A stretch of DNA of 64,000 bases, taken from the NCBI GenBank assembly GCA_017545665.1, contig JAFWKQ010000048.1:1-64000 (forward strand). The letters are read 5' to 3'. The DNA comes from Atopobiaceae bacterium (GTDB lineage: Bacteria; Actinomycetota; Coriobacteriia; Coriobacteriales; Atopobiaceae). The notes beneath the pieces were generated by a model that had not been told where the DNA came from, searched no databases, and worked only from the letters and a program-made list of their open reading frames with translations. Below are positions 19,508 to 40,857 of the stretch, piece after piece; the stretch's first letter is position 1, and every line of letters begins with the position of its first letter. Made by a program: the position numbers and the translations under genes.

Positions 19508-22500
19508 ATGAAGAAGGGTTCGGGCTTTTGGCTTAGGAACAAGTCGTTGGCGCGCTTTATGAGCGTTTTGGTGAGCGTGTCTATGATCTTGAGTCTTTTG
19601 CCAGCTCAGGGCGTGCAAGAGGCTCGCTCTGAGTTTCTTATGGCAACTGCCGTAGCACAGGAAGACCCCAAGACGAACGAGACGACCGATCCGGGCGGAA
19701 GCAACACAAACAATAGTTCGTCGTCGAGCACAAATAGTTCGTCTACGAACGAGGGTGGCACTCCGTCTGAATCTAAGCCCGAAAGTGACCCCGAACCCTC
19801 AAATGAGCCTGCGAACGAGCCCAAAAACGAGGCTCCCGCGAACAATGCAAATAACAGAGAGAACAACTCTGAGCAAAAGGAGCCAGAACAGTCCTCGTCC
19901 TCCAGCAGCAGCTCGGAAACCAAAGAGCCCGAAAAGACCCCTCAGGGCGCCGACCTTGCCGATTTCATAACCAAGGCAGAGGTTGAGGGTGCCGAGGAGA
20001 AGGACGGAGTGCTGCAGGTAAAGGAAGGGCAAACTTATACCGCGAAGCTCACCTTTACCGAGAATAACGAAAAGCAGTTTGCCACCGAGGGCGAACTTAC
20101 CTATAAGCTGCCTGCCGGCTTTACCCCCGCAGCCGAGCAGCCTGCAGCTAAGGAAGCACTCTATATTACTTACGTTGACGACAATGGCGAGCGCCAGCCT
20201 ATCGAGCTCGGCAAGGAGAGCCGGTGGGTTGATGGCGATACCGTGCATGTGGTGTGGAAGGTCCGTGATGCCGACAAGCGCAGTCCTGAGGAAGTAGCAC
20301 AGGCCCTCGCAACGATCAACGAGCTCACGAGCGTTGAGTTTGAGCTCTCGATTGTTGGCACGTTTGCCGCAGGCACCAAGTCCGTGGACTTTGGCGCTCC
20401 CACCGAGCCCATAGCGATTGAGGTTGAGGCCGCAAAGAAGGACGAGGAGCAGAAGAAGGACGAGGAGAAGAAGGACGAGGAGCAGGACGCCAACAAGAAG
20501 TCTGACGAGCAGAACGCTGATAAGAAATCCGAAGAGCAGAAGAAGTCCGAGGAAGAGGATGCCAAGAAGGCCGAGGAGCTGGCCGCGAGCCTTGCCACCA
20601 GTATGGTCAAGGGTAACAAGGGTCAGAGTGTCGTGACCGCACAGTCTGTGTGGGAGAAGGGCTTGGCGGCGGCACAAGCGCTTACGGCGCAGTCGACGAC
20701 TGTGACTGACCTAAGTCAAGTTGTGAAAAGTGTGTCCATTACTGCACCGCAGAATGAGAGCGGTGCATGCAAGCTCATGCCAGGCGAGACGTATAGCATT
20801 ACTATGTCGTTTGCCGAGAATAGTAACTATCAGTTCCCTGACGATGCTACGCATATGACCTACACCGTGCCAAACGATTTTAAACTCCCCACGACGGGCG
20901 AAAAGGACTTCAAAATAATAGTTACCGATCCAAATGGAGGACAACATACGGTATCGGGAAACAAATACAAAATAAATGATAACAATCAGCTTGAGGTATG
21001 GTTCAACACATCAGACTCCAACTTTGACTATCTAAAAGGTTCTCCCAACGTGCGCTTTAACATGAGCTTTGACGGTGAGTTTGATTCGAGCAAAAACAAA
21101 ATTGAGTTCCCGGTCGGAGTCGATATAGACGTAGAGCTCGACAACACAAGTGAGGTAGATGCAAACAAATCTGCAAAGGTTGCAGACGGCGAGACCGATC
21201 CGTCATGGGTCCTCGAGAACATCCCAGTAGGCGACTATACCGTTACCGAAACCAACAACCCCAAGAAATACGACTTAACTTCCGAATACAAGGTGGGCGA
21301 GAACCGAACCATAAACGACAAGGCAACGTTGAAGGTTGAGAGCGAAAAGACCTTGGCTGTTGACATCACCAACAACACCCCCGACAAGCCTGGCTTCGAC
21401 AAGAAGATCAAGGACACCAACGACACCACCGGCGAGACCAGCGACTGGCAAGACAGCGCGGACTATGACATTGGTGACGCAGTGCCGTACAAGCTCACCG
21501 CCACGCTGCCCAAGGACGTGACGGCCTATAAGAAGTATCACATCACCTTCACCGACAAGATGGAGAAGAGCCTCACCTACAACAAGGATGCCAAGATTAC
21601 CGTTACTGGCAGTGACGGCAAGGTAATACCCGAGTCCGAGTACGAGGCTACCAAGGTTGCCGAGAATGAGCATGACTTCGGCTACACCCTCACGTGGACC
21701 GGCAAGGACCAAAGCTATATTGCCAACGAGGCACTAAACGGAGCAAAGGTGGAGGTGGAGTTCACCGCCACGCTCAACAGCGATGCCGTGCTGGGCAAGG
21801 AAGGCAATGTAAATGCCTGCAAGCTCGCCTACAGCAACAACCCTACATCTAAGGACGACAAAGAAGAGGGCGAGCTGGACTGGGACTACGTAATCGCCTT
21901 CACCTACAAGGTGGACGTAAGCAAGGTGGACGAGAATTCAAGGCCGCTTAAGGGCGCGGAGTTCAAGCTCGAAAAGGAACTTGCAGACGGCACAACCAAG
22001 GAGATCGAGATTACTGCCAGTGAAAGTTCGCTCTTCAACAGAGGCAACGTATTTACTGCCACTGGCTTGGATGATGGAACGTACATCCTCACCGAAACAA
22101 CTGCACCCGAGGGCTACAACAAGATTGACCCGATTGAGTTTACGGTGTCGGCCGAGCACAGAGAGGAATGGCAGTACAATTCCAATCCTGAATCCGACCC
22201 CGTGTTCGACAACGACGGCACTGGACAGAGCAAGCGCCTTGGTAACCTTACCTCGCTCACGGGCGACGAAGAGACGGGCACAATTGAGCTTAAGGCAGAC
22301 GATAAGCTGGAAGGCCTTTCGGGCGACGTGGTCAACAGCAAGAACGGCGCAAACATTGTTGTGAAGAAGAAGGTCTCGAGCTCGCGTTCCGACGACAAGA
22401 AACGTGACTTCAAGTTCAAGGTTACACTGTACAAGGACAAAGAGTACAAGGAAGTCTACAAGAGCATCAACGGCACGTATGGCGACATGAAGTTCAAGGA

Positions 22501-22843
22501 CGGCGTGGCGAACTTCACGCTCAAGCACGACGAGAGCAAGGAAGCCAGCAAGCTGCCGATCACCAAAGACGGTATCTACTACAAGGTTGAGGAAACCGAC
22601 TCTGGCGACCTCACTCCAAACGTATCCAACCCCAGGAAGTCCTTGGATGGATACACCCACACCGTAACCTGCACCAACACCTACAAGTCAAGCACGCCTA
22701 GGAAGAGCAGCACCTCGTCTAGGCTCGCCACAGCCAGAACAGGCGACAATACCAACAACACCATCGTAATAGCGCTTGTTGGTATAGGTGTAATTGGCGT
22801 GATCGCCGGCGTCCTGTCCAAGCGTCGCCGCGCGAGCAAGTAA
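19508..22843 (+). CDS. Large pilin-like surface adhesin with isopeptide/Cna_B domains
   Basis: A 1111-residue protein. It has a signal peptide (about 1-43), a Ser/Asn/Pro-rich stalk (55-145) and a beta domain (150-300). A highly charged repeat follows (KKDEEQ/KKSEEQ, about 308-365). Next come further beta domains, a pilin backbone-type domain (about 615-800), a SpaA/Cna_B domain ending YILTETTAPEGYNKI (about 800-880) and a FctA/DUF7601-like domain (GDMKFKDGVANFTLKH). The C-terminus has LATARTGD, a transmembrane helix and KRRRASK. This is the layout of a sortase-anchored pilin or adhesin, but the sorting motif is non-standard (TARTG instead of LPxTG). No sortase or second pilin gene is adjacent. 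Confidence 0.82.
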   Translation: MKKGSGFWLRNKSLARFMSVLVSVSMILSLLPAQGVQEARSEFLMATAVAQEDPKTNETTDPGGSNTNNSSSSSTNSSSTNEGGTPSESKPESDPEPSNEPANEPKNEAPANNANNRENNSEQKEPEQSSSSSSSSETKEPEKTPQGADLADFITKAEVEGAEEKDGVLQVKEGQTYTAKLTFTENNEKQFATEGELTYKLPAGFTPAAEQPAAKEALYITYVDDNGERQPIELGKESRWVDGDTVHVVWKVRDADKRSPEEVAQALATINELTSVEFELSIVGTFAAGTKSVDFGAPTEPIAIEVEAAKKDEEQKKDEEKKDEEQDANKKSDEQNADKKSEEQKKSEEEDAKKAEELAASLATSMVKGNKGQSVVTAQSVWEKGLAAAQALTAQSTTVTDLSQVVKSVSITAPQNESGACKLMPGETYSITMSFAENSNYQFPDDATHMTYTVPNDFKLPTTGEKDFKIIVTDPNGGQHTVSGNKYKINDNNQLEVWFNTSDSNFDYLKGSPNVRFNMSFDGEFDSSKNKIEFPVGVDIDVELDNTSEVDANKSAKVADGETDPSWVLENIPVGDYTVTETNNPKKYDLTSEYKVGENRTINDKATLKVESEKTLAVDITNNTPDKPGFDKKIKDTNDTTGETSDWQDSADYDIGDAVPYKLTATLPKDVTAYKKYHITFTDKMEKSLTYNKDAKITVTGSDGKVIPESEYEATKVAENEHDFGYTLTWTGKDQSYIANEALNGAKVEVEFTATLNSDAVLGKEGNVNACKLAYSNNPTSKDDKEEGELDWDYVIAFTYKVDVSKVDENSRPLKGAEFKLEKELADGTTKEIEITASESSLFNRGNVFTATGLDDGTYILTETTAPEGYNKIDPIEFTVSAEHREEWQYNSNPESDPVFDNDGTGQSKRLGNLTSLTGDEETGTIELKADDKLEGLSGDVVNSKNGANIVVKKKVSSSRSDDKKRDFKFKVTLYKDKEYKEVYKSINGTYGDMKFKDGVANFTLKHDESKEASKLPITKDGIYYKVEETDSGDLTPNVSNPRKSLDGYTHTVTCTNTYKSSTPRKSSTSSRLATARTGDNTNNTIVIALVGIGVIGVIAGVLSKRRRASK

Positions 22844-23780: not shown

Positions 23781-23965
23781 CTCCGGATGCTGGCGTCGGA
23801 GCCACTTTCTGAGGTGTCGAAAAGTGGTCCTGACATTCGCCTGCGCTCATTTTCTTCCACCGTTTTTTGGCGGCTAGGGTGCCACCCACTGGACTGCGTT
23901 CGGGGGAGTGTGTCCAAAAAACTCTCAATCGTGTTACGCTCGATAGGGGGATTTAAGGGGGCAGC

Positions 23966-26641
23966 ATGGACGATAGGCGTACGGGCGGTATTGTGGCGGC
24001 GGTAACGCTTACCATAACCGCTGCCTTTGTCGCCATTGCCTTTTTGATAATCCACACCAGCATCGACTCTGCCAAAAACCATGCCGAGAGCTCCATGGAT
24101 CTCTATGCCTCCGATCTCTCGTCCGCCGTCGATGCGGTTGTGCGGAGCCAGTTTGACCTCTTGGACGCCTCCATGGTGGACACGGACGTTTCGCAGGCCT
24201 TTACCCGGGAAGACAATGGCACGACGCCAGAGCAAACCTCAGCCACCGTCACTCCGCTGCTCGCCAGGTCCACGCCCAACGCATCCAAGGGGTTGTCTTT
24301 TGCTCTTTCGGGAACGAGTCACGTGCTCTATAGGGCCGACGGAACGCACGCGCGCATTAGCGACAACGACTGGAACCTCTTTTGGTTCGTGTATGACGAC
24401 ACCGTGCGTGGCGACTCGGGCGGGTATCACGTGCATGGCTTTGCAAGCCAGGCGACTCACGAGAGCGAGCTCATAGTGGGAAGGGCTATACGTGGCAATC
24501 CCGCGCACGCCGGCGCGTTGGGGGTTCTTATTCCCGCAACGACCTTGTCCGACGTAATTAGCAACCTTTGGACGCACGAGCCGCCAAACACGATTCTCTA
24601 TAACGACGACGGGACGGTGCTGCTTTGCACGCAAGACCCTTCGCTTCAGGGGTCGAATGTGTTCGATCTGTACCCCAACCTTGCGAGTTCGCTCAAGGAC
24701 CTGCAAAGCGGTAAGACCCAAATGGTGAGGGCGTGGGAAGGTCTCGAAGGCATCCTGCCCCAGGGACAAACGCTCTATGAGGCGCGAAGAAACGATCGGA
24801 CGGGCTGCTTTACGCTCGTTGCTCACAACGCGGAGGACGTGTTTGGTCCCATGCGCGAGCGCGTGACCACGCTGGTTCTTGCTTTGAGCGTCGTTATGAT
24901 CCTGCTGCTGTTGCTCGTGATGTTTATCGTACGGTGGTACCGAACGCGTCTTATGCGCGTGGCAACAACCGACGAGCTTACGGGCTTGGCCAACCGCAAG
25001 TGGTTTACCTCCAGCTTTGAGGCGCTTTCTGCAGAGGGTGTGGGCGAGGCCCACTTAGCGCTCATAGACGTAGACAAGTTCAAGGGAATCAACGACACCT
25101 ACGGCCATGCCTCTGGCGACAAAGCCCTAGCCATGGTGGCCGAAAAGGTGCGTGAGGCGGCTGGCAGCACTGGGATTGCGGGACGCTGGGGCGGAGACGA
25201 GTTTATTGCCGTGCTGCGGGCGCCTGCGGAAGAGGCCGAGGCGCGAGTGCACCAGATGATCGATGCCGTTGCCGGTCAGACGATTGACGAGCAGATTCAC
25301 GTGTCGGTGAGCGTTGGTTTGGCACAGTTGCGGAATGGCGACTCGCTTGAGAGAGCGGTTGAGCGCGCCGATGACGCCCTCTACGTTACCAAGGAAGGTG
25401 GACGTGGGTTCCTTACGGTCTACGAGGAAGGCGTCACGCCGCACATGGCCGACGATCAGGTTGGCACGGTAAGGGGCCCTGCTCAACGGATGGGTGCAAA
25501 AGAGGCCGGCTCGTCGACAAGCGCTGCCAACAGCGAGGATCCAACCACTCCAGACGCGGGTCTCAAGAGGATCAAAAGCGTGCGACCGAGGCTCGATTTG
25601 GTGGTAAAAAGCCTGCTAGAGGCCGTGTACAAGATGGTCCCGTTTGTGGCTGGCGGCGGCATCCTCATTGCCCTTGCGTTTCTTATTGACGCTGCGAGCG
25701 TAGACGTAAACACACTGTCTGCCGAGACACGCGCAAACTTTGGATCGATTACTCCCATTGCCGCTGGTCTGCGCGACGTAGGTTCGGCGGCCTTCAACTT
25801 TATGCTGCCCATTTTTGCGGCGTTCTTTGCGCGCGGACTTGCGGGTGACGAGGCGTTTATGGCTGGCTTTGCGGGCGGGTTCTTGTCTTCGCAGGGAAGC
25901 GCGGGATTTGCCGGCGCCATTTTGGCGGCATGCGTAGCCGCCGTTGTGGTGCGGCTTATGAAGGGGCTCTTGCACGAAACGGGACCGCATCTGCAACGTG
26001 TGGCGCCGGTGCTGCTCTATCCGGTGTTTTCGCTGCTCATTATGTATTTGCTCATGACCTACGTCATAGACCCTGTGGCAAGTGCCTTTGACGCACTGCT
26101 CACCTCGCTGCTCGTTACTCTGCAGAAGGGGAACAGCGTGGTTCTGGGAACTGTGTGTGGCGCCATGATGGCAACCGATATGGGCGGTCCCATAAACAAG
26201 GCGGCGTACCACTTTGGTACCGCTGCCATCGCATCTGGCTCGCCGAACATTATGGCGTCCGTAATGGTGGGTGGTATGGTGCCGCCATGCGGAATCGCCC
26301 TATGCATGCTGTTGTTCCGCAACAGGTTTGATGAGGAGACGCGCGACCAGGGGGCGGCGACGCTCTTTATGGGTCTCTCGTTTATTACCGAGGGCGCTCT
26401 TCCGTTTGTGCTCACCGACCCACTTCGCGTGATCCCCTCGTGCATCGTTGGCTCGGCCGTGGCGGGCGGGCTCTCCGAGGCGTTTGGTTGCACGCTCGTG
26501 GCGCCTCATGGGGGGATTTTTGTTTTCCCCGTTGTGGGCAACCCTCTAATGTACCTGGTAGCTTTGGTAGCGGGCTCGCTGGTCTGCGCCGTAATGCTCG
26601 GTCTTCTCAAACGCAAGGTGGCACAGTTAAACCAGGTATAA
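23966..26641 (+). CDS. Sensor-GGDEF diguanylate cyclase fused to a fructose-type PTS EIIC domain
   Basis: An 891-residue membrane protein. Order: TM1 (9-30), an extracellular sensor (about 31-295), TM2 (301-322), a complete GGDEF domain (about 335-488; DELTGLANR, DVDKFKGINDTYG, RWGGDEF with GGDEF at 409-413), a Ser/Thr linker (500-540), then a PTS fructose-family EIIC (about 545-885). The EIIC part keeps family signatures: FVAGGGILIAL (560-570), GPINKAA (741-747), ITEGALPF (807-814), DPLRVIP (818-824) and PHGG (847-850). No EIIA or EIIB is encoded nearby. The GGDEF site looks active and lacks an RxxD inhibitory site. The simplest inference is c-di-GMP synthesis controlled by sugar occupancy or by the sensor. 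Confidence 0.88.
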   Translation: MDDRRTGGIVAAVTLTITAAFVAIAFLIIHTSIDSAKNHAESSMDLYASDLSSAVDAVVRSQFDLLDASMVDTDVSQAFTREDNGTTPEQTSATVTPLLARSTPNASKGLSFALSGTSHVLYRADGTHARISDNDWNLFWFVYDDTVRGDSGGYHVHGFASQATHESELIVGRAIRGNPAHAGALGVLIPATTLSDVISNLWTHEPPNTILYNDDGTVLLCTQDPSLQGSNVFDLYPNLASSLKDLQSGKTQMVRAWEGLEGILPQGQTLYEARRNDRTGCFTLVAHNAEDVFGPMRERVTTLVLALSVVMILLLLLVMFIVRWYRTRLMRVATTDELTGLANRKWFTSSFEALSAEGVGEAHLALIDVDKFKGINDTYGHASGDKALAMVAEKVREAAGSTGIAGRWGGDEFIAVLRAPAEEAEARVHQMIDAVAGQTIDEQIHVSVSVGLAQLRNGDSLERAVERADDALYVTKEGGRGFLTVYEEGVTPHMADDQVGTVRGPAQRMGAKEAGSSTSAANSEDPTTPDAGLKRIKSVRPRLDLVVKSLLEAVYKMVPFVAGGGILIALAFLIDAASVDVNTLSAETRANFGSITPIAAGLRDVGSAAFNFMLPIFAAFFARGLAGDEAFMAGFAGGFLSSQGSAGFAGAILAACVAAVVVRLMKGLLHETGPHLQRVAPVLLYPVFSLLIMYLLMTYVIDPVASAFDALLTSLLVTLQKGNSVVLGTVCGAMMATDMGGPINKAAYHFGTAAIASGSPNIMASVMVGGMVPPCGIALCMLLFRNRFDEETRDQGAATLFMGLSFITEGALPFVLTDPLRVIPSCIVGSAVAGGLSEAFGCTLVAPHGGIFVFPVVGNPLMYLVALVAGSLVCAVMLGLLKRKVAQLNQV

Positions 26642-26715: not shown

Positions 26716-27732
26716 CTATGCCGCTTCGGTAGTGGCTTCGGTTTTCTGCTCGGCCTTGGGCTGGGCGGCTTTGGTCTCGAGCTTTGCGATGCGGTCCTGA
26801 AGCTTCTGGGGTACTTCGTTGCCCTTGCGAACGAGGGCGTCGCGCTTGTTGTAGAGCTTAACGAGGGTTGCGCGCTCTTTGTCGTTGAGGTTGTTCATGG
26901 TGGCTACGCGCTCTTTGTTGGCTTTGGCTGCAGCCTCTGCCTCGGCCTTTTCCTTTGCCTTGGCTGCAGCCTCGGCCTTTGCCTTTGCGTCTGCCTCCGC
27001 CTTGGCCTTTGCGTCGGCCTCCGCCTTGGCCTTTGCGTCGGCCTCCGCCTTGGCCTTTGCGTCGGCCTCCGCCTTGGCTTTGTCCTCTGCGGCCTTCTTC
27101 TCGGCCTCTGCCTTTGCCTTGCCTTCAGACTCTTCCTTCGCCTTCTTCTCGGCCTCGGCCTTGGCCTCGGTCTTGTCGTTGGTGGAGGGCTTTGCCTGAT
27201 TGTTGCTGGTGGCTGCGGCTTCGCTGATGCTGGCTTCTATTTCTTGGTTGTCTGCCACGGAATTCTGGGCAGCCTCGACGTTCTCGTTGCTGTAGTCAGA
27301 ATCGTCGTAGTCGTAGTCGCTATCGGAGCCGTCGTAGTCGTAGTCGCTATAGTCGGAGTCGGCGTCGTAATCGGTGTCGTCGGAGTCGACGTCCCCGTAG
27401 TCACCGTAGTCATAGGCGGAGTCGTCGATCGCATAGTCTTCGTAACCCTCGCTTGCAACGGCGTCGTTTGCGGCTTGTCCCTGGCTGGCTGCCTGGTTGC
27501 TGGTGGCAGGCGCGGTTTCGTCTAGGACGAGGAGCTCGTCGCCGGTCTGATCGTTGTTCGAGGCGACGGTGGCCGTTTTAGTTGCGTTCTGAGTTGCCTG
27601 GCTCTTGAGTTGGTGCTGAAGCGATGCGTTGGAACCCATGGCATAGGTTGCAACACCGGTGCCGGTAAGGGCGATTGCAATGGCGGCTACTACGGCGACT
27701 TTCTTAGCGTTAATGTTGTTGGTGGCCTTCAT
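26716..27732 (-). CDS. Exported or membrane-anchored DY-rich protein with KAEADA repeats
   Basis: A 338-residue protein. ATG 27732 is chosen because AAGGAG lies 6 bp upstream, inside the longer frame. Residues 1-35 form a signal or anchor segment (VAVVAAIAIALTGTGVATYA). Residues about 85-150 are extremely Asp/Tyr-rich (DYGDYGDVDSDD, DYDYDGSDSDYDYDD). Residues about 185-265 are an Ala/Lys/Glu helix with tandem KAEADAKA units, and the C-terminus is a basic helical segment (NDKERATLVKLYNKRDAL). The acidic Tyr-rich region could bind cations or cell-wall polymers; the repeats suggest a long stalk like TolA. No enzymatic domain is seen. The repeats are nearly identical at DNA level, so copy number may vary. 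Confidence 0.7.
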   Translation of the reverse strand: MKATNNINAKKVAVVAAIAIALTGTGVATYAMGSNASLQHQLKSQATQNATKTATVASNNDQTGDELLVLDETAPATSNQAASQGQAANDAVASEGYEDYAIDDSAYDYGDYGDVDSDDTDYDADSDYSDYDYDGSDSDYDYDDSDYSNENVEAAQNSVADNQEIEASISEAAATSNNQAKPSTNDKTEAKAEAEKKAKEESEGKAKAEAEKKAAEDKAKAEADAKAKAEADAKAKAEADAKAKAEADAKAKAEAAAKAKEKAEAEAAAKANKERVATMNNLNDKERATLVKLYNKRDALVRKGNEVPQKLQDRIAKLETKAAQPKAEQKTEATTEAA

Positions 27733-27919
27733 GGTGCTCTCCTTCACACTTTGGAATTGGTTCCTTTCCTTATCTACCTATAAATACGAGAGGGGCTGCG
27801 GACAATCTCACGCCTAGCTGCAAGAAAAGAGTCAAGAAAATGTCAACATGCGGCGACAAATGTGACAAGTGCTTCTGTTTTTGCGTGTGCCAGTCCGCTC
27901 GGGTGGACGGGCTTGCTGG

Positions 27920-29492: not shown

Positions 29493-30830
29493 CTAAATCT
29501 CGCGCGAGCTTACTACGTTGCCGTTTGCGTCGAGTATGCTCTCTATGTTGCCCGTTGTTTCGGAAGCGCTGATTACACTGCCTTCGATGGCGTCTACCTG
29601 CACTTGATACTTGGCCTCGCCAAGATTGAACTCAACGTTGTAATACAAGGTTCCACCGCCATTAATGAGGTCGGAGGTCTTGAGGTCAATGGGATCGCCC
29701 TTTGCCTGTCCGCCCGCTCCCATGGCCTTGGTCGCAATGTCGGTGCACTGCTCCTTGCTGTAGTTGGCCTTATAGTCATCGTTGGAGCTGGACGAGGACT
29801 CTGGCGTAGGCGTCGGCGTAGGCGTCGGAGTCGGCGTAGATTCCTGCGTTGGCGCAGGCGTAGGCGCAGGCGTTTGCACTGGCGTTGGGCGCTTGAGCTC
29901 GAAGGTAACCGTAGAACCTTGGTCGACCTTGGCGTTGGGAGCAGGCTTCATGGAAACGACGGTACCGTCCTCGTTGCCACTGTAGCTGTACTTGAGCCCC
30001 GCGCTCTCGAGCGTCTTAATTGCCTCGTTGCGGCTGTAGCTAAGGATGTTGGGGACCAAAACCTGCGTTGCGGGCTTTTTGCCCAGCGAAACCTCAACGG
30101 TTACGACCGTGCCCTTGTTCACCTTGGTGTCCTTGGCCACACTTTGGCTTATTACCACGTCCTTCTTTACGGTGTCGCTATAGGAGTTGGTGGTGTCGGA
30201 GCCCAGCCCGGCTTTGGCAAGGATGTCGCGAGCCTCGCTGACGCTCTTGCCGGCAACGTCGGGAACGGTCACCTGCTCCTTGCCAAGGCTTACGCTATAG
30301 GTAATAACAGAGAGAACCTGCGCCTTTGTGCCTGGCGCCGCGGATTGGGAGCAAACCTTGCCGGCCTCTACGGTATCGGAGTTCACCTGTGGTCCCGGCT
30401 GCGGAATAAACAGAGCGTCACTGAGCTTCTTCTCGGCTTCCTCGGCGCTAAGCCCGGTGAGGTCGGGAACCTCTACCGAATCGGAGAGCTTGGGACCCTT
30501 GGAAACCACTATGTTTACGGCGGAGTCCTTGTCTACGGTGGCGCCCACGGCAGGGTTGCACTCCAGCACGATATCGCCAAGGGGAACCTCTGCGCTTTCC
30601 TTCTCGGTTACCGACCCGATCTTGAGTCCGGCATTGGAAAGCTCCTTTTGAGCTTCGGTGTGCTCCATGTAGACAATTTCGGGCACCTTGACCTTGGGCT
30701 TGTTTAGAAGCACGAAGGCAGCGACGGCAATGGCTGCCACCACCAGAACGCCAATGACTATGGGTACGACCGGCTTCTTCTTCGCCTCTGGAACTGCCTC
30801 TGGCCCTTTCTTCGGCTCATCCATGTGCAT
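29493..30830 (-). CDS. PASTA-repeat protein with C-terminal PepSY-like domain, no kinase
   Basis: A 445-residue protein. A short cytoplasmic N-terminus and TM helix (about 21-43) precede four PASTA domains (about 48-315). Units can be seen at EVPDLTGLSAEEAEKKL and VPDVAGKSVSEARDIL. A Pro-Thr linker (TPTPTP, about 318-345) follows, then a PepSY-like domain (about 352-445; YKANYSKEQCTDIATKAM, YQVQVDAIEGSVI). PASTA domains normally sense muropeptides in PknB-type kinases and PBPs. Here no kinase or transpeptidase domain is attached, so the protein may act as a wall-bound adaptor or binder. Confidence 0.82.
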   Translation of the reverse strand: MHMDEPKKGPEAVPEAKKKPVVPIVIGVLVVAAIAVAAFVLLNKPKVKVPEIVYMEHTEAQKELSNAGLKIGSVTEKESAEVPLGDIVLECNPAVGATVDKDSAVNIVVSKGPKLSDSVEVPDLTGLSAEEAEKKLSDALFIPQPGPQVNSDTVEAGKVCSQSAAPGTKAQVLSVITYSVSLGKEQVTVPDVAGKSVSEARDILAKAGLGSDTTNSYSDTVKKDVVISQSVAKDTKVNKGTVVTVEVSLGKKPATQVLVPNILSYSRNEAIKTLESAGLKYSYSGNEDGTVVSMKPAPNAKVDQGSTVTFELKRPTPVQTPAPTPAPTQESTPTPTPTPTPTPESSSSSNDDYKANYSKEQCTDIATKAMGAGGQAKGDPIDLKTSDLINGGGTLYYNVEFNLGEAKYQVQVDAIEGSVISASETTGNIESILDANGNVVSSREI

Positions 30831-32853: not shown

Positions 32854-33038
32854 TCCTCTAGCTGTCTTCGCGCAGGAAAGTCTCTTGGCCATACGCTTAT
32901 TTACCATCTTATGCCTACCCTTAACTGAATAGTGTTTGCTCAACATGCACGACGGGTGAACGAAATGTGTACTATTAAATGTGTGCTATCAATTTAAGTA
33001 CGGCGAACGAGAGACGCAAACGAGGCATGGAGGAACTG

Positions 33039-35966
33039 ATGGCACGGGCGGTAGGGGCAATCAAGCGGAGCGTGATCGTTTTCCTGCTGCTTGTTCTTTC
33101 CCTTTCCACGATAACAATGCCAACGACGCGTACGACGGCTCATGCGCAGGAAAAGGAAAACAAGGTAGTGCGTGTTGGTTGGTACGACTCGTCGTACAAC
33201 ACTATGGATGCGCTCGGGCGTCGCTCGGGCTATGCCTATGAGTATCAGCTAAAGATCGCGGCATATACCGGCTGGAGCTACGAGTACGTTTCGGGAAGCT
33301 GGTCCGACCTTCTGAGGATGCTCATTGAGGGCAAGATCGATCTTATGAGCGACGTCTCATACACCGAAGAGCGATCAAAAAACATGCTGTTTCCCGACTA
33401 TTCCATGGGAACGGAGGAATACTACCTGTTCGTTGCTCCAGGCAACCAGGAGATTCTGTCAACGGATCCTTCCACGCTCAACGGAAAGCGCGTTGGCGTA
33501 AACAGAGAGAGCATACAAGCCGACTTCTATCGCGAATGGGCAAAGCGCAACAAAGCAAACGCCGAGGTCGTAGAGCTGAATACCACCGAGGACGAATCGT
33601 TGCATATGGTGAAGGATGGCAAGATCGACGCCTACGTTACGGTGGACTCCTTTGTGGACCCAGCGCGTGCCATGCCAGTGTACAAGGTGGGATCGTCCGA
33701 CTTCTTCTTTGCCGTAAACAAGAATCGACCCGATCTGCTTACGGACCTCAACAATGCTCTAAGCAGCATCCACAACGAGAACCGCTACTTCAACCAGCAG
33801 ATGTTCGAGCAATACATAAACACGGCAGGCGCAAATGCGTTTCTTTCGGTAAACGAGAAGGGCTGGCTTGCCGACCACGGACCGATTCGTGTGGGCTATC
33901 AAGACAACTACCTGGCATTTTGCGCAACAGACCCAAATACCGGCAAGCTCACGGGTGCTCTAAAGGACTACTTGGAATATGCCCAGAGCTGCATGGAAAA
34001 CGGTCAGCTCTCGTTTGAGCCAAAGGGCTATTCCACGGTGGAGGAGGCCTTGGATGCCTTGAAGAGGGGAGAGGTGGACTGCGTCTTTCCCGCAAGCCTT
34101 GGCGGCTTTGACGGAGAAAAGCAGGGCATCGTTATGACGCCACCGCTTATGAGCACCGACATATATGCGGTTGTGCGGCAAACGGACACGAGCAACTTCA
34201 ACAACAACAGGCACGTGCTCGTTGCGGTTAACGAGGGAAACCCGAATTACGACGCCTATTTGATGGACCATTTCCCCAATTGGCAGTCGGTGTACTTTAA
34301 AACTACCCCTGACTGCTTAAACGCGGTGGCAAACAACATGGCGGACTGTGTGCTCATTAGTAGCTATCGCTACAACAACATATCAAGGCAGTGCGAACGA
34401 CTGCACCTCACAACCATTCCAACGTCCATGAGCCTGAATTCGTGCTTTGCGGTGGAAAAGGGGAACACGGATCTGTATTCCATACTGGCAAAGGTCGTGA
34501 ACCAAGTTCCCGACTCCACGGTTAACTCGTCGCTGTCGTACTACATCACAGAGGACGCCAAGCGGACCTTCACGGACTTCATTGCCGACAACATGGGTAT
34601 TGTGCTGGCAGTCGTCCTTGCCGTAATACTCGTTATTACGCTGCTCCTGCTGCGCAGCAGGCGGGCGGAAAAACTTGCGAAGGAGCTCATTTCGGCAACG
34701 GAGACGGATGCCCTTACGGGGTTGTACAACAGGGACTACTTCTTCCAATACGCCAACCGAATGCGTCAGGAGCAGTCCGACGTGCCCATGGATGCCATGG
34801 TGCTCAACATCGAGCAGTTCCATTCGATCAACGCCGTTAACGGAAGGGACTTTGGAGACCGGGTGCTCAAGACGCTCGGTAACGAACTGCGCATTATTGC
34901 AAAGGAGAACGATGGCATAGGCGGGCGCTTTGATGCGGATCGATTCGACCTCTTCTGCGCTCATGTGGACGATTATCATGGCATTTACGACCGCCTCCAG
35001 CACAAGTTGGAGGAAATGGCGCCAAACACAAGCATTCGCGTTCGCATGGGCGTGTTGCTTGCGCAAACGCAATTGGAGCCCGTGCAGATGTTCGACATGG
35101 CGCGTACCGCCTGCAGCATGGCGCGCGGTCACTTTAAGGAGCACGTTATTGTCTTTGACGAAAAGGTGCGCGAGCAGGAGCTGTTTGAGCAGCGTTTGCT
35201 CAACGACTTGCAACGCGCTTTGGACAGCTACGAGTTTGAGGTTCACTACCAGCCCAAATTCAACATCCAAGGCGATACGCCGAAGCTTGTGAGCGTGGAG
35301 GCGCTCATTCGCTGGAGGCATCCCGAGTTGGGCATGATTGCGCCGGACGACTTCATTCCGCTGTTTGAGCGAAACGGCAAGATCGTGGAAGTGGACAAGT
35401 ACGCTTGGTCCACTGCGGCACGGCAGATTGCCCGTTGGCGTGCGGAGTACGGCAGGATGATTCCGGTTTCGGTTAACCTGTCGCGGATTGACGTGTTTGA
35501 CTCAGGGCTCGAGGAAACGCTTGATGGTATTCTTAAAGAGAATAAACTGGATTACTACGCGCTGAAGCTGGAGGTTACGGAGTCTGCGTACATGGACAAC
35601 GAGGATCAGCTTAAGCACGTCATAAAGAGTTTGCGCGAAAAGGGGTTCACGGTTGAGATGGATGACTTTGGAACCGGATACTCATCCCTCAACATGCTGT
35701 CCTCCGTGCCGATTGACGTCATCAAGATGGACCAGGTTTTTATCAGAAACATAGAGAGCGACAAGAAGAACGTTCGCCTTGTGGAGCTGATTCTGGGAAT
35801 TGCCAAGAGCCTGGATGCGCTGGTAGTTGCGGAAGGCGTTGAAACCGAGTCCCAACTGCAGCTTCTCAAGCGTCTTGGCTGCGCAGTGGTGCAGGGTTAC
35901 TACTTCTCGCGTCCGCTTCACCCGTCTGATTTTGAGGCCAAGTACCTCCAGGAGGAAGAGCGGTGA
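33039..35966 (+). CDS. Tandem SBP sensor, degenerate GGDEF and EAL: c-di-GMP phosphodiesterase
   Basis: A 975-residue protein. ATG 33039 (MARAVG) has GGAGG 5 bp upstream and starts a clean signal peptide. Two SBP_bac_3 (amino-acid-binding type) domains follow: about 40-265, beginning VVRVGWYDSSYN, and 275-505, beginning IRVGYQDNYLAF. A TM helix lies at about 530-552. The GGDEF domain is degenerate: FDADRF replaces GGDEF. The EAL domain has EALIRWRH, EVTESAY, MDDFGTGYSSL and EGVETESQ, so it should be catalytic. The enzyme probably hydrolyses c-di-GMP when a small solute binds outside. It is the first of three overlapping or closely spaced genes (35963, 37596). Confidence 0.88.
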   Translation: MARAVGAIKRSVIVFLLLVLSLSTITMPTTRTTAHAQEKENKVVRVGWYDSSYNTMDALGRRSGYAYEYQLKIAAYTGWSYEYVSGSWSDLLRMLIEGKIDLMSDVSYTEERSKNMLFPDYSMGTEEYYLFVAPGNQEILSTDPSTLNGKRVGVNRESIQADFYREWAKRNKANAEVVELNTTEDESLHMVKDGKIDAYVTVDSFVDPARAMPVYKVGSSDFFFAVNKNRPDLLTDLNNALSSIHNENRYFNQQMFEQYINTAGANAFLSVNEKGWLADHGPIRVGYQDNYLAFCATDPNTGKLTGALKDYLEYAQSCMENGQLSFEPKGYSTVEEALDALKRGEVDCVFPASLGGFDGEKQGIVMTPPLMSTDIYAVVRQTDTSNFNNNRHVLVAVNEGNPNYDAYLMDHFPNWQSVYFKTTPDCLNAVANNMADCVLISSYRYNNISRQCERLHLTTIPTSMSLNSCFAVEKGNTDLYSILAKVVNQVPDSTVNSSLSYYITEDAKRTFTDFIADNMGIVLAVVLAVILVITLLLLRSRRAEKLAKELISATETDALTGLYNRDYFFQYANRMRQEQSDVPMDAMVLNIEQFHSINAVNGRDFGDRVLKTLGNELRIIAKENDGIGGRFDADRFDLFCAHVDDYHGIYDRLQHKLEEMAPNTSIRVRMGVLLAQTQLEPVQMFDMARTACSMARGHFKEHVIVFDEKVREQELFEQRLLNDLQRALDSYEFEVHYQPKFNIQGDTPKLVSVEALIRWRHPELGMIAPDDFIPLFERNGKIVEVDKYAWSTAARQIARWRAEYGRMIPVSVNLSRIDVFDSGLEETLDGILKENKLDYYALKLEVTESAYMDNEDQLKHVIKSLREKGFTVEMDDFGTGYSSLNMLSSVPIDVIKMDQVFIRNIESDKKNVRLVELILGIAKSLDALVVAEGVETESQLQLLKRLGCAVVQGYYFSRPLHPSDFEAKYLQEEER

Positions 35967-37591
35967 TGGTGCATATGCGTTCGCTACGGACAAAGATGAC
36001 CCTGCTTACTGTTTGCATAATCGTTGTTACGGTAGTCAGCATGGCCCTGCATAGCGTGTACTTCATCCGCGATTCCGAGAGGCAGGAATCCAATCAGCTC
36101 CTGTTGCTTTTGTGCGAAACGGGAGAGCGAAACCTCGATTACTACTTCAACAGCGTGCAGAAGTCGGTTGGCAAGGTGGCTGCCATTGCGGAGTCGGATC
36201 TGGACGGCTTAGACGACCAAAAGCTCGCGCAGCACGTAGATCGCATGCGGAAGAGCTTTGACGAGATGGCCTCCAAAACAAACGGAGTCCTAACCTACTA
36301 CTATCGCATTGATCCCGAGATATCCAACAAGGTAAAGGGCTTTTGGTACACCGATCTAAACGGCGAGGGCTTCGTGGAGCACGAAGTCACCGACATTACC
36401 AAGTACGATACGAGCGACACCTCAAAACTTGTGTGGTTTACGGTGCCCAAGTACGAGGGCAAAGCCGTTTGGCTTCCGCCCTATATCACCGACAATCTGG
36501 GCGCGCACGTAATCTCCTACAACGTTCCCATCTACTGGCGCGGCCAGTTCGTTGGCGTGGTTGGCATCGAGATCGACTACAGCACGATGGCAGAGCAGGT
36601 TGAGAGCATTCGACTCTACAACAATGGCTATGCGTTCCTGAGTGACGAAGACGGAAACCTCTTCTTCCATCCGCGCATTGACGTGAGCCAGTATTCCGAG
36701 GACCAGATTCCCAAGGTTCCCGAATCGGCCATCGACAAAAGCACCTTTATTAAGTACAACTACGAGGGCGTGGATAAGATCGCCGCATGGCTGCCGCTAA
36801 GCAACGGAATGCGTCTGAACGTTACGGTGCCGGTATCCGAGACAGAAGGCGATTGGCAGAAGCTCGTGTGGCAAACCATGGCGTTCGCCATCGTTGTGCT
36901 GCTGATTGCAAGCACGTTTACCATGCTGTACACCAAGCGCATTACAAGGCCCTTGGAGGAGCTAACGGACGCTGCCGACCAAGTGGATCGTGGCAACTAC
37001 GACATAGAGCTTACCTATAGCGGAGACGACGAGGTTGGACGGCTCACGAGCACTTTCAAACGACTTGCCGGCCACATGAAAGACCACATAAGCGACCTCA
37101 ACAAGCGTGCGTACGTGGATTCCATGACGCACGTAAGAAACAAGGGCGCGTATTCCACCTACACAGAGGGCTTGCAGCAGAGCTTGGAGAGCAATAACGA
37201 TCTGGCGTTTGCGGTTGGCATGTTCGACTGCGACAACCTCAAGATGATCAACGACAAGTACGGGCACGAAAAGGGCGACGAATACCTTATGCTGGCGTGC
37301 CGTCTGATCTGCCGCATCTTCCAACACAGTCCCGTCTTCAGGATTGGTGGCGACGAGTTTGCGGTTGTTCTTCAGAACGACGATTTGCAGAACAAGGACG
37401 AGCTCTTGCAGAAGTTCAAAGACGCCATGGTCCAGATTAGCGACGATGCGCAAAACGAATGGGAACAGGTGCATGTGGCCGTGGGAATAGCGGTGTACGA
37501 TGCGAAGATCGACCAAAGCGTAAACGACGTTCTGCTTCGCGCAGACCAACTCATGTACGAGAACAAACGTGCGCGAAAGAGGGGAAGGTAG
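35963..37591 (+). CDS. Cache-HAMP-GGDEF diguanylate cyclase
   Basis: A 542-residue protein. The start is GTG 35963 or ATG 35966, both overlapping the EAL gene stop, with AGGAGG at 35950-35955. TM1 lies near 10-32. A double-Cache extracellular domain (about 35-295) contains GVLTYYYRIDPE, KLVWFTVPKYEG and GYAFLSDEDGNLFFHP. TM2 is at about 300-322 and HAMP at 323-375. The GGDEF domain (about 380-540) has a complete RIGGDEF and DCDNLKMINDKYGH. It should make c-di-GMP in response to a small ligand. Pairing with the EAL gene ahead gives opposed activities from one transcript. Confidence 0.87.
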   Translation: MMVHMRSLRTKMTLLTVCIIVVTVVSMALHSVYFIRDSERQESNQLLLLLCETGERNLDYYFNSVQKSVGKVAAIAESDLDGLDDQKLAQHVDRMRKSFDEMASKTNGVLTYYYRIDPEISNKVKGFWYTDLNGEGFVEHEVTDITKYDTSDTSKLVWFTVPKYEGKAVWLPPYITDNLGAHVISYNVPIYWRGQFVGVVGIEIDYSTMAEQVESIRLYNNGYAFLSDEDGNLFFHPRIDVSQYSEDQIPKVPESAIDKSTFIKYNYEGVDKIAAWLPLSNGMRLNVTVPVSETEGDWQKLVWQTMAFAIVVLLIASTFTMLYTKRITRPLEELTDAADQVDRGNYDIELTYSGDDEVGRLTSTFKRLAGHMKDHISDLNKRAYVDSMTHVRNKGAYSTYTEGLQQSLESNNDLAFAVGMFDCDNLKMINDKYGHEKGDEYLMLACRLICRIFQHSPVFRIGGDEFAVVLQNDDLQNKDELLQKFKDAMVQISDDAQNEWEQVHVAVGIAVYDAKIDQSVNDVLLRADQLMYENKRARKRGR

Positions 37592-37595
37592 GCGT

Positions 37596-39590
37596 ATGCG
37601 TCCATCAACGTGGAGGGAATGCGTCAAAGGTGTGCTACTCCTGCTCTTCTTAATGATGCTGGCGGCTGTTGCGTTGCCAGCCGTCGCGCATGCGCAGGAG
37701 CAGCCGAAGGTCGTGCGCGTTGGCTGGTACGAATCCCCCTTCAACAGGTTGGACGAGCACGAACGACGCTCTGGCTATGCCTACGACTATCAGCAAAAGA
37801 TCGCAGCCTACACCGGCTGGAAATACGAGTATGTGGAGGGCAGTTGGGCCGATTTGCTCCAAATGCTGCAGGATGGCAAGATCGACCTGATGAGCGACGT
37901 GTCCTACACGGACGAGAGGGCGGAGCGGATGCTCTTCTCTGCGTTGCCCATGGGCGCAGAGGAGTACTACCTCTTTGCAGCCCCTGGCAACTATGATATT
38001 TCCACCGAGGACTACAACACGTTCAAGGGAAAGAAAGTCGGTGCTCAAAAGGGAAGCGTGCAGATCGGCTACCTTCGCGACTGGGCTAAGACCAACAACA
38101 TTCAGGTGGAAATCGTAGAGCTCACGGGATCGGAGGAGGACAACATAGCAAAGCTCGCCAACGGCAACATAGACCTGTATCTGTCGTTGGACGGGTTCTT
38201 CGACAAAAAGGTTGCCGTGCCTGTTTGCAGGGTTGGCACCTCCGACTTCTTCTTTGCCGTAAACAAGTCTCGTTCCGACCTTTTGGTTGAGCTCAACAAC
38301 GCGATGAATAGGATTCAGGACGAGAATCAGTATTACGACGAGCAGCTTTATGCCAAATACTTGCAGGTTTCCAGCGTGAACAACTTCGTTGACGCCCACG
38401 AGAGGGAATGGCTCGATCACCATGGCGCCATTCGGGTGGGATATCAGGACAACTACCTTGCCCTTTGCGCAAAGGACCCAAAGACGGGGGAGCTCACCGG
38501 TGCGCTCAAGGACTGGCTTGACGTCGCGGCCTCCAACATAGATAACTACGACGTGCGATTTGAGCCCGTGTGCTATCCATCTTCTGCCGCTGCTATGGAG
38601 GCAATGGGAAAAGGTGAGGTAGACTGCGTGTTCCCGGCAAACCTCACTGCCTATGACGGAGAGACTCAGGATGTTTTTATTACGCCGGCGATCATGCGCA
38701 CCGATATGTCTGCGGTTATACGCGAGGCGGATCAAAAGACCTTTGCAAGCAAAGAGCGCATAACCGTGGCAGTCAATGCCAACAATCCCAATTACGAGAT
38801 ATTCCTAAAGGACCACTTCCCGGACTGGCTCCCCATCTATTTCGATGACACGCAGGAGTGTTTAAAAGCCATTGCCGATGGGCAAGCGGACTGCTTGCTG
38901 ATCAGCAAATACCGCTACAACAACATAGCGAAGACCTGCGAGAAGTACCATCTAACTACGTTGTCGACGGGCGTGGAAATGGACTACTGCCTTGCGGTAA
39001 ATCGGAGCGACACGGTTTTGTACTCCATTCTGTCTAAGGCCGCGGCCGTGGTGCCAACGTCTACGGTCAACGCAGCGCTTACGCATTACTATATGGAGGA
39101 TGCAAAGACAAGCGCCGTCGATGCCTTTGCTCAGGTGCTTCCGATCATTGTGACCTGCGCACTTGTTGTTGCCGCGTTGGTGATGATATTCATGCTCGTT
39201 CGTGGCTTGTGGCTGGACAGGAAGAACGCACAACCTCGGCAGAGGATTCCCGTTAGGGAAGACTTTGTTCTCTTTGACGACCTGCCCATTTCGTATAGCG
39301 TCTATCGCGTTACGCATACCGAGCACAGCGAGCTCTATGATGCGGAGTTTATTTACGTGAACAACATGTTCCTAAAGCTTGGGGGAGTTTCTAGTCAAGA
39401 GGTTATTGGCCATCATGTGAGGGAGCTCTATCCCTACATTGAGGAGGATTGGTTCCAGAGCGTTCGTCGCGCGGCATATGAAGGCGAAAACATAGACACA
39501 GACTACACCGATCCCCTTAGCGGAAAATCGTTCCATCTTATGATCACTCCTGTTATTGCGCCTGGATATTGCGCGGTTACCTATCAGTAA
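37596..39590 (+). CDS. Tandem SBP sensor ending in a lone PAS domain
   Basis: A 664-residue protein starting at ATG 37596, four bases after the cyclase stop. The signal peptide (to about 34) and both SBP_bac_3 domains are close paralogues of those in the 33039-35966 protein (same VVRVGWYxS, RSGYAYxYQ, DLMSDVSYT and IRVGYQDNYLAxCA blocks). After the TM helix (about 520-545) there is one PAS domain (about 555-664; ISYSVYRVTHTE, FLKLGGVSSQEVIGH). The chain then stops: no GGDEF, EAL or kinase follows. It may signal by partner binding, or the output domain was lost. The next gene in the same direction is a CDF exporter. Confidence 0.83.
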   Translation: MRPSTWRECVKGVLLLLFLMMLAAVALPAVAHAQEQPKVVRVGWYESPFNRLDEHERRSGYAYDYQQKIAAYTGWKYEYVEGSWADLLQMLQDGKIDLMSDVSYTDERAERMLFSALPMGAEEYYLFAAPGNYDISTEDYNTFKGKKVGAQKGSVQIGYLRDWAKTNNIQVEIVELTGSEEDNIAKLANGNIDLYLSLDGFFDKKVAVPVCRVGTSDFFFAVNKSRSDLLVELNNAMNRIQDENQYYDEQLYAKYLQVSSVNNFVDAHEREWLDHHGAIRVGYQDNYLALCAKDPKTGELTGALKDWLDVAASNIDNYDVRFEPVCYPSSAAAMEAMGKGEVDCVFPANLTAYDGETQDVFITPAIMRTDMSAVIREADQKTFASKERITVAVNANNPNYEIFLKDHFPDWLPIYFDDTQECLKAIADGQADCLLISKYRYNNIAKTCEKYHLTTLSTGVEMDYCLAVNRSDTVLYSILSKAAAVVPTSTVNAALTHYYMEDAKTSAVDAFAQVLPIIVTCALVVAALVMIFMLVRGLWLDRKNAQPRQRIPVREDFVLFDDLPISYSVYRVTHTEHSELYDAEFIYVNNMFLKLGGVSSQEVIGHHVRELYPYIEEDWFQSVRRAAYEGENIDTDYTDPLSGKSFHLMITPVIAPGYCAVTYQ

Positions 39591-39642
39591 GTCGTGTATT
39601 GTATGTATGTCATGCGTGTGGGCGTTTGAGGAAGGGCGGAAC

Positions 39643-40752
39643 GTGGCGTCGCGAGAAAAGCAGGTTGTAAGAACCGGCACAATCAACGTTGTGGGCAACC
39701 TTCTGCTGGCAATACTCAAGTTTGTGTTGGGTGCAATAACGCAGTCCATTGCCATTACGCTCGATGGCGTAAACAGCCTAACCGATAGCTTTACCAGCGT
39801 GCTCACGATTGTGGGAACAAAGATTGCGCAACGTCCGCCCGATTACGAGCATCCCTTTGGACATGGGCGCTATGAGTACCTTACCTCCGTCGTCGTGGCA
39901 TCGTTGATTATTGCGGCAGGAGCCTCTTCGCTCAGCAGCTCGATTCACGCGATTGTGGATGGGAGCACGTCTACGTACACAGTAATGGCGCTTGTCCTCA
40001 TTGGCTTCGCGAGTGTTACAAAGGCGGGGTTGGGCATCTATACGCGTGCCGTTGGAAAAAAGCTGGACTCGTCGCCGCTCGTTGCCAATGGCACCGATTC
40101 GCTCATGGATTCCATCGTCTCGGCTTCCACGCTGCTGGCTGCCATCCTAAACATGGCGTTTGGCATTGGCATCGAGTCGTATCTTGCGGCTGCCATCTCT
40201 GTGTTCATCATAAAGAGCGGCATACAGATTCTTCTGGAAACGATTTCCAAGATCGTTGGCGAGCGACAAGACCCTCGGCTTGCGAATCGTGTGGAAAAGG
40301 CTGCGCGATCGGTTGAGGGGGTAAAGCTCGTAAGCGGCATCGTGATTACGGACTTTGGCCCCAACAAATACGGTGGCTCACTTCATGTGACGGTTGACAA
40401 AAACATGACCGTCTCCGAATTCGACGAAATTGCGCGTGAGGTGTATAGGCGCGTTATAGATGAGTGTGGGGTAGTGCTTGTTTCGGTGGGTGTTTATCCT
40501 GCGGAAGAGATTAGTGACGAAAGCCGAAAGCTGCGCGCGAAGGTGTCGCGTTTCTTGTGGAGCCACGAGCACATAGTCGAGGTGCGCGGGCTCATTGTGG
40601 ATGTGGAACGCAAGATTTGCCGGTTTGACGCTGTGGCCGACTATTCCATACAAGACCTAGGTGCGTTTGGGAACGAACTGAACCTTGCCTGCCAAGAGGT
40701 GGTGCCAGGCTTCACGTTCGAGCCGCACGTGCGGGGTGACGTTGGCGACTAG
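39643..40752 (+). CDS. Cation diffusion facilitator, probable Mn2+ exporter (MntE-like)
   Basis: A 369-residue protein; GTG 39643 is chosen, with GGAAGGGCGG upstream. Six TM helices span residues about 12-210, and a cytoplasmic domain follows (about 215-369). The metal site residues are N44/D48 in TM2 (DGVNSLTDS) and D152/D156 in TM5 (NGTDSLMDS). CDF proteins with N/D-D plus D-D sites, rather than the H-D of Zn exporters, are associated with manganese. The EHPFGHGRYEYL loop is conserved in the family. Gene order suggests co-transcription with the sensor set, but the link may be incidental. Confidence 0.83.
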   Translation: MASREKQVVRTGTINVVGNLLLAILKFVLGAITQSIAITLDGVNSLTDSFTSVLTIVGTKIAQRPPDYEHPFGHGRYEYLTSVVVASLIIAAGASSLSSSIHAIVDGSTSTYTVMALVLIGFASVTKAGLGIYTRAVGKKLDSSPLVANGTDSLMDSIVSASTLLAAILNMAFGIGIESYLAAAISVFIIKSGIQILLETISKIVGERQDPRLANRVEKAARSVEGVKLVSGIVITDFGPNKYGGSLHVTVDKNMTVSEFDEIAREVYRRVIDECGVVLVSVGVYPAEEISDESRKLRAKVSRFLWSHEHIVEVRGLIVDVERKICRFDAVADYSIQDLGAFGNELNLACQEVVPGFTFEPHVRGDVGD

Positions 40753-40857
40753 CGCAATTGCATGAACGCAAACCGCGCTATATAAGTGCGTTTTTGGTGC
40801 CATCTTGCATCGTTTGTATGCTTCGTGCATGATGGAATTGCTGGCAAACGTGCTCAT

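Follow-up and report, generated by a model that had tools for sequence, protein, structure and literature searches.

The joining of a transporter fold to a diguanylate cyclase is not new as such: a solved precedent exists in the ammonium transporter-GGDEF proteins (PDB 8qj3, 8qj4 and 8qpf; GGDEF at residues 461–629), for whose structures our literature search found no accompanying paper. For the PTS, a 2022 review (PMC8846402, Fig. 4) counts PTS_EIIC, in Pfam, as rare alongside GGDEF, EAL or HD-GYP domains; as presented there, the entry is a database count that calls PTS_EIIC a phosphoreceiver domain, with no protein studied and no GGDEF-EIIC family described in that context. The same source cites the pairing of EIIA-Glc with PdeS in Vibrio cholerae (Heo et al. 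2019), which, as the protein described below may do, links the sugar state of the PTS to c-di-GMP turnover, but through separate proteins, a phosphodiesterase and EIIA phosphorylation as the signal.

The locus studied here lies in the window (the whole 64,000-nucleotide stretch of DNA that was analysed) and encodes a GGDEF domain fused to a fructose-type PTS EIIC. Like the ammonium transporter-GGDEF proteins it holds a transporter fold and a diguanylate cyclase in one chain; in those proteins, however, the GGDEF domain stands behind an Amt fold, whereas here it precedes an EIIC and follows an extra sensor. The GGDEF domain of the fusion matches their structures at 8e-13, with no sequence relation outside GGDEF, and the membrane part is EIIC throughout, AmtB aligning over 92 residues only (Z about 8). 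With the fructose EIIABC permeases (FruA) the protein shares a TIGR01427 EIIC (42–55% identity), the substrate-side motifs and the placement of soluble domains ahead of EIIC, but it has a GGDEF domain instead of EIIA and EIIB and has lost a basic/Pro loop on the cytoplasmic side. The literature search found no characterised GGDEF-EIIC protein, in agreement with the first-pass annotation, which knew of none with this architecture, yet PTS_EIIC had already been counted together with c-di-GMP domains in PMC8846402.

The gene and its encoded domains

The frame starts with ATG and stays open throughout its 891 codons (Table 1), and both domains lie far above the curated cut-offs (Pfam GGDEF, PF00990, 1.1e-33; Pfam PTS_EIIC at residues 557–829, 1.2e-17; NCBIfam TIGR01427, fructose EIIC, 314.6 bits against a cut-off of 157.55). 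The single open frame reported by the first-pass annotation is thus borne out, as is the exact position of its GGDEF motif, and no RxxD occurs at the I-site position. Neither EIIA nor EIIB was found in the chain by Pfam or NCBIfam, again as had been claimed, nor was any domain besides GGDEF and EIIC. A promoter scan around the gene gave no more matches than expected by chance, and the only Rfam hits in a riboswitch search of the 64-kb window were two tRNAs.

Table 1. Features of the fusion gene and its product, in window coordinates.
Feature	Position	Strand	Evidence
Shine-Dalgarno-like AAGGGGG ahead of the ATG	23955..23961	+	direct reading of sequence
Fusion gene, 891 aa: TM, extracellular domain, TM, GGDEF, linker, PTS EIIC (fructose type)	23966..26641	+	ORF, Pfam, NCBIfam; orthologues
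First transmembrane helix, hydrophobic peak aa 5–36	23978..24073	+	hydropathy; model helix 4–30
Predicted extracellular domain, aa 32–298	24059..24859	+	alignment, structure model, Pfam null
Second transmembrane helix, aa 302–325, running on as signalling helix into GGDEF	24869..24940	+	model, hydropathy
GGDEF domain, aa 333–480; catalytic motif residues invariant in all fusions; without I-site	24962..25405	+	Pfam, alignment, SadC structural match
GGDEF motif, aa 409–413	25190..25204	+	translation
Linker, aa 490–543, disordered and fast-evolving	25433..25594	+	model; dN/dS
PTS fructose EIIC domain, aa 545–882, complete EIIC fold	25598..26611	+	NCBIfam TIGR01427, structure model
aa 627–629 (GDE), site of the family-wide ADRP/AERP/AGKP loop, lost in 9/9 fusions	25844..25852	+	EIIC alignments
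DMGGPINK, aa 738–745, retained	26177..26200	+	EIIC alignments
FITEG, aa 806–810, retained; Glu809 conserved in canonical EIICs, invariant in fused ones	26381..26395	+	EIIC alignments
HGG, aa 848–850, retained	26507..26515	+	EIIC alignments

The cyclase half looks active: beyond the GGDEF motif itself, D368/D370, N376, D377, K476 and R480 are invariant in the alignment of the fusions, and the modelled domain aligns with SadC (4wxw) at a Z of 23.5. The GGDEF domains of the fusions also group together (SH-aLRT 93, with limited sampling). Structure prediction of the joined protein, which had been suggested as a check, gave a whole-chain model with a mean pLDDT of 72 and a pTM of 0.45, in which GGDEF and EIIC are each confident and the linker (residues 490–540) is disordered; because of the low pTM, the mutual placement of the two domains is not predicted.

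The extracellular part is the more variable portion of the chain. It measures about 267 residues in two fusions (that of the window and its 82% orthologue) and roughly 100–130 in the others, with 37–73% identity among them. In the moderately confident model, its second half (residues 190–290) has a strand-helix order resembling that of Cache/PDC domains, a likeness suggested by topology; Pfam, dCache and sCache included, gave no match to residues 32–298. No fold match was obtained for this part of the whole-chain model, which does not in itself point to a new fold.

Occurrence and origin of the fusion

Absence of the fusion from all close relatives would have spoken against a real gene, but intact full-length homologues are present in three further species of the same genus (G001, 82% identity; G002, 66%; G012, 56%). 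A GGDEF and an EIIC domain in one chain are therefore conserved in several genomes of the Coriobacteriia, where the first-pass annotation had proposed to look for them. Further intact homologues occur in an Oscillibacter MAG of the Oscillospirales (L033) and in four Lachnospiraceae genomes (L034/G417, G665, G625 and G811). The 1070-residue protein of G811 is identical to one encoded on the complete circular plasmid pNP243 (NZ_CP146964.1) of the isolate Butyrivibrio fibrisolvens D1, where the coding sequence (WAA20_RS20590, WP_338802811.1) is annotated merely as 'fructose-specific PTS transporter subunit EIIC'. When plasmids were searched with the window protein, pNP243 gave the sole one-piece match from GGDEF through EIIC among the matches listed, and a search of IMG/VR returned plain GGDEF matches only, with no fusion. 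In total, nine distinct intact fusion sequences were recovered from two phyla, in the Coriobacteriia, Oscillospirales and Lachnospirales.

The fusion is rare. In samples of genomes searched at thresholds of 1e-100 to 1e-160, which genes cut by contig ends would escape, intact copies were found in 4 of 398 Coriobacteriia (all in the genus of the window), 3 of 392 Lachnospirales, 3 of 79 Butyrivibrio-genus genomes, 1 of 394 Oscillospirales and 1 of 391 Clostridia drawn evenly; these counts refer to fructose-type EIIC fusions. Several weaker candidates were set aside. Matches to residues 411–887 or 357–884 in Pseudobutyrivibrio and in G076 proved to be canonical EIIABC frames of 640–680 residues with no GGDEF match, and fragments in G013, G016 and G032 were not counted as broken fusions, as none showed an attached GGDEF. 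One genome of another genus in the same family (G037) carries a copy interrupted by frame breaks (L133:6655-9254, minus strand), either a pseudogene or a sequencing error.

That the two halves are separate genes joined by the assembly or by a chance open frame is a reading we regard as close to negligible. The window genome is a draft of 134 contigs and the G037 copy is broken, both of which would fit such an artefact; nine distinct intact sequences in independent assemblies from two phyla, including a complete plasmid from an isolate, exclude chance and mis-assembly, and selection acts across both halves. Comparison of the window gene with its 82% orthologue gives dN/dS values of 0.08 in the GGDEF domain and 0.095 in the EIIC, against 0.21 in the extracellular part and 0.41 in the linker, so that purifying selection acts on the GGDEF half and the EIIC half alike.

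A maximum-likelihood tree built from 83 EIIC domains places the nine fused EIICs on one side of a single branch, apart from the ordinary EIIABC permeases (support 100/100; 200/200 bootstrap trees). The placement of all nine in one clade suggests that the fusion probably arose once and was then transferred between Clostridia and Coriobacteriia, and so between phyla; since the tree contains long branches and is rooted at its midpoint, a single origin is likely rather than proved. The named carriers are mostly derived from rumen or gut. Except in the closest pair, the neighbourhoods of the fusion genes differ among genomes, and none of them contains PTS genes or shows a link to PTS or fructose genes.

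The EIIC half and its Butyrivibrio extension

Modelled alone with AF2, the EIIC half reaches a pLDDT of 89.8 and aligns with the crystal structure of the MalT EIIC (5iws) over 323 residues (Z 18.8, rmsd 4.1), and with glucose IIC structures at a Z of about 10. To see what it keeps and what it has lost, the nine fused EIICs were compared with 131 ordinary (canonical) ones. Of the columns that reach at least 95% conservation in the canonical set, 53 are also invariant in 9/9 fusions, among them E809 of FITEG, H848 of HGG, and D738, N744 and K745. In this family, the residues of FITEG, HGG and DMGGPxNK presumably form the sugar pocket.

Other positions of the EIIC have changed. D627, R628 and P629 are each 100% (rounded) conserved in the canonical EIICs and changed in 9/9 fusions, position 627 becoming G, 628 becoming D, E or Y, and 629 becoming E or A; N799 is likewise changed in 9/9, and all fusions, or nearly all, also differ at S555, A815 and A816. 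The earlier description of a full EIIC with its conserved motifs therefore holds for the substrate side and fails for the cytoplasmic-side loop that the rest of the family keeps. In a set of 20 fructose-like EIICs from Coriobacteriia that are more divergent and for the most part stand-alone, position 628 is still basic and position 629 still Pro or Ala (as ADRPG, AERPG, AEKPG, AGKPG or GKRPA), so that loss of the loop marks the fusions and not divergence in general; the loop itself is a conserved feature found in this analysis, not a published criterion. By helix count from the cytoplasmic GGDEF domain, residues 627–629 would link EIIC helices two and three on the cytoplasmic face; charge agrees with this placement, as the basic stretch at 662–680 falls on the same side. 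The lost loop may have served EIIB docking or phosphotransfer; our search found no structure of an EIIC-Fru/EIIB complex.

Other features of a working EII complex are absent as well, with no EIIA or EIIB in the chain and no PTS gene in the neighbourhoods. The sole fructose EIIB domain of the window's genome lies inside a separate EIIABC permease of 683 residues, and that genome has no EIIB dedicated to the fusion.

In each of the three Butyrivibrio species found to carry the fusion (L034, G665 and pNP243), the frame runs past the EIIC without a stop, through a basic-hydrophobic segment that closes with a lipobox (FTGC or LTGC), into a Peripla_BP_4 domain, which is complete in G665 and pNP243 and cut by a contig end in L034. 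The solved proteins nearest to this domain are D-ribose-binding proteins (2gx6, 6e-41), and dN is far below dS across it too. G625, the Oscillibacter form and the Coriobacteriia forms end with the EIIC. A sugar-binding protein joined to the EIIC lends independent support to sugar sensing. The Butyrivibrio fusion could be a self-processing polyprotein, cut by signal peptidase II, or its binding protein might be translated from an internal ATG. RmcA, as described in PMC8846402, similarly combines a solute-binding domain (SBP_bac_3) with a c-di-GMP enzyme in one chain; in the Butyrivibrio versions, by contrast, the RbsB-like domain is C-terminal, behind the EIIC and lipobox. The three loci with the order GGDEF, EIIC, lipobox and RbsB-like domain (L201:8527-11739, corresponding to NZ_CP146964.1 176146-179358; L034:7587-10532; L170:1195-4416) are annotated only as EIIC.

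Possible working of the fusion and its genomic surroundings

On balance, we lean towards reading the protein as a transmembrane diguanylate cyclase whose C-terminal EIIC does not act as a phosphorylating permease but as a receptor, with a sugar or something similar to a sugar as its ligand. The first-pass annotation had offered two options, and its sensor option, in which EIIC sets c-di-GMP, is favoured over the one tying c-di-GMP production to transport because the presumed substrate-site residues are invariant, the cytoplasmic loop is lost in 9/9 fusions, there is no dedicated EIIB and the Butyrivibrio forms carry a sugar-binding protein. The sensor-GGDEF part occupies the place held by EIIA and EIIB ahead of EIIC in the ancestral EIIABC-Fru, and EIIC dimers would keep two GGDEF domains side by side, the EIIC acting as both receptor and scaffold. 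A ligand in the retained pocket might then shift the helices flanking the GGDEF domain and alter c-di-GMP output, while the small extracellular domain, which flanks the GGDEF at its other end, may supply a second input; in Butyrivibrio, the ligand is probably collected or presented by the RbsB-like lipoprotein encoded in frame behind the EIIC. The architecture and its conservation, the catalytic and the retained substrate-side motifs, the loss of the loop and the lack of an EIIB partner are observed directly; the class of ligand, the direction of the response, the geometry of the dimer and a role of the loop with EIIB we infer. The fusion probably lets the cell change its behaviour upon sensing sugar.

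The alternatives differ in what they ask of the EIIC. In a true transceptor, it would import and phosphorylate sugar with the EIIB that the chromosomal EIIABC-Fru supplies in trans, and the GGDEF domain would read the flux or the cycle of transport. In other PTS families an EIIB can work in trans, the canonical EIIABC of the genome has an EIIB that could do so, and the substrate motifs are kept; we nonetheless find this reading rather unlikely, given the changes in the fusions at the family-wide basic/Pro loop (627–629), N799 and S555, the lack of an EIIB dedicated to the fusion and the separation of the fusion genes from PTS or fructose genes. At the other extreme, the EIIC could be a membrane or dimerisation scaffold only, leaving the Cache-like extracellular domain as the only sensor. 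The order of transmembrane helix, extracellular domain, transmembrane helix and GGDEF is indeed that of ordinary sensory diguanylate cyclases, and in the model the helix from the second transmembrane segment continues into the GGDEF domain, but a mere anchor would not retain 53 family-conserved columns including the pocket residues, and the extracellular part is variable in length and identity and less constrained than the EIIC, all of which makes this quite an unlikely account.

A further reading accepts the EIIC as receptor and would make the fusion a quorum sensor, its ligand being a signal molecule such as autoinducer-2 instead of a nutrient sugar. Autoinducer-2 is bound by binding proteins of the RbsB/LsrB type and by dCache domains, the fructose-PTS protein FruA has been proposed as its receptor in Streptococcus pneumoniae (as put forward in PMC5263250), and its sensing is reported to be common among rumen bacteria, Butyrivibrio included (PMC9540692). 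Pfam, however, finds no dCache_1 in the extracellular part, and the Butyrivibrio binding protein is closest to D-ribose-binding proteins; we consider a signal of this kind distinctly improbable.

Returning to the sugar-receptor reading, we would tentatively add a history, which we rate as somewhat short of probable: a PTS permease became a receptor once, when its phosphotransfer partner domains gave way to a diguanylate cyclase, the pocket being kept and the loop that worked with EIIB lost; the resulting sugar-gated c-di-GMP synthase spread between rumen and gut Coriobacteriia and Clostridia and, in Butyrivibrio, gained a tethered RbsB-type binding protein. If true, a single polypeptide would physically and directly couple a sugar-uptake fold to the synthesis of c-di-GMP, and this in bacteria of the rumen and gut, where the inputs to c-di-GMP signalling have received little study. 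It would also offer a simple system for the change from transporter to receptor, with the pocket kept, the coupling loop lost and an output domain where EIIB was; the existence of a carrier isolate, B. fibrisolvens D1, makes the question testable.

The surroundings of the gene provide some further observations. Directly upstream, at 19508-22843 (+), the window encodes a surface protein of 1111 residues with a pilin backbone (PF16569) and SpaA domains, which would be a plausible adhesion output of the fusion. Convergent with the fusion gene, at 26716-27747 (−), lies a frame of 343 residues with tandem Ala/Lys/Glu-rich repeats of the KAKAEAD type and no Pfam match, and at 29493-30830 (−) a protein that has four PASTA matches together with a PepSY-like domain but lacks a kinase domain. 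The 3.7-Mb Coriobacteriia genome of the window is unusually rich in c-di-GMP genes, with 67 GGDEF matches. Six kb downstream of the fusion, a signalling run at 32979-42195 (+) encodes SBP_bac_3-GGDEF-EAL, dCache-HAMP-GGDEF, SBP_bac_3-PAS and HD_5 (HD-GYP-like) proteins, a c-di-GMP cluster with two solute-binding sensors.
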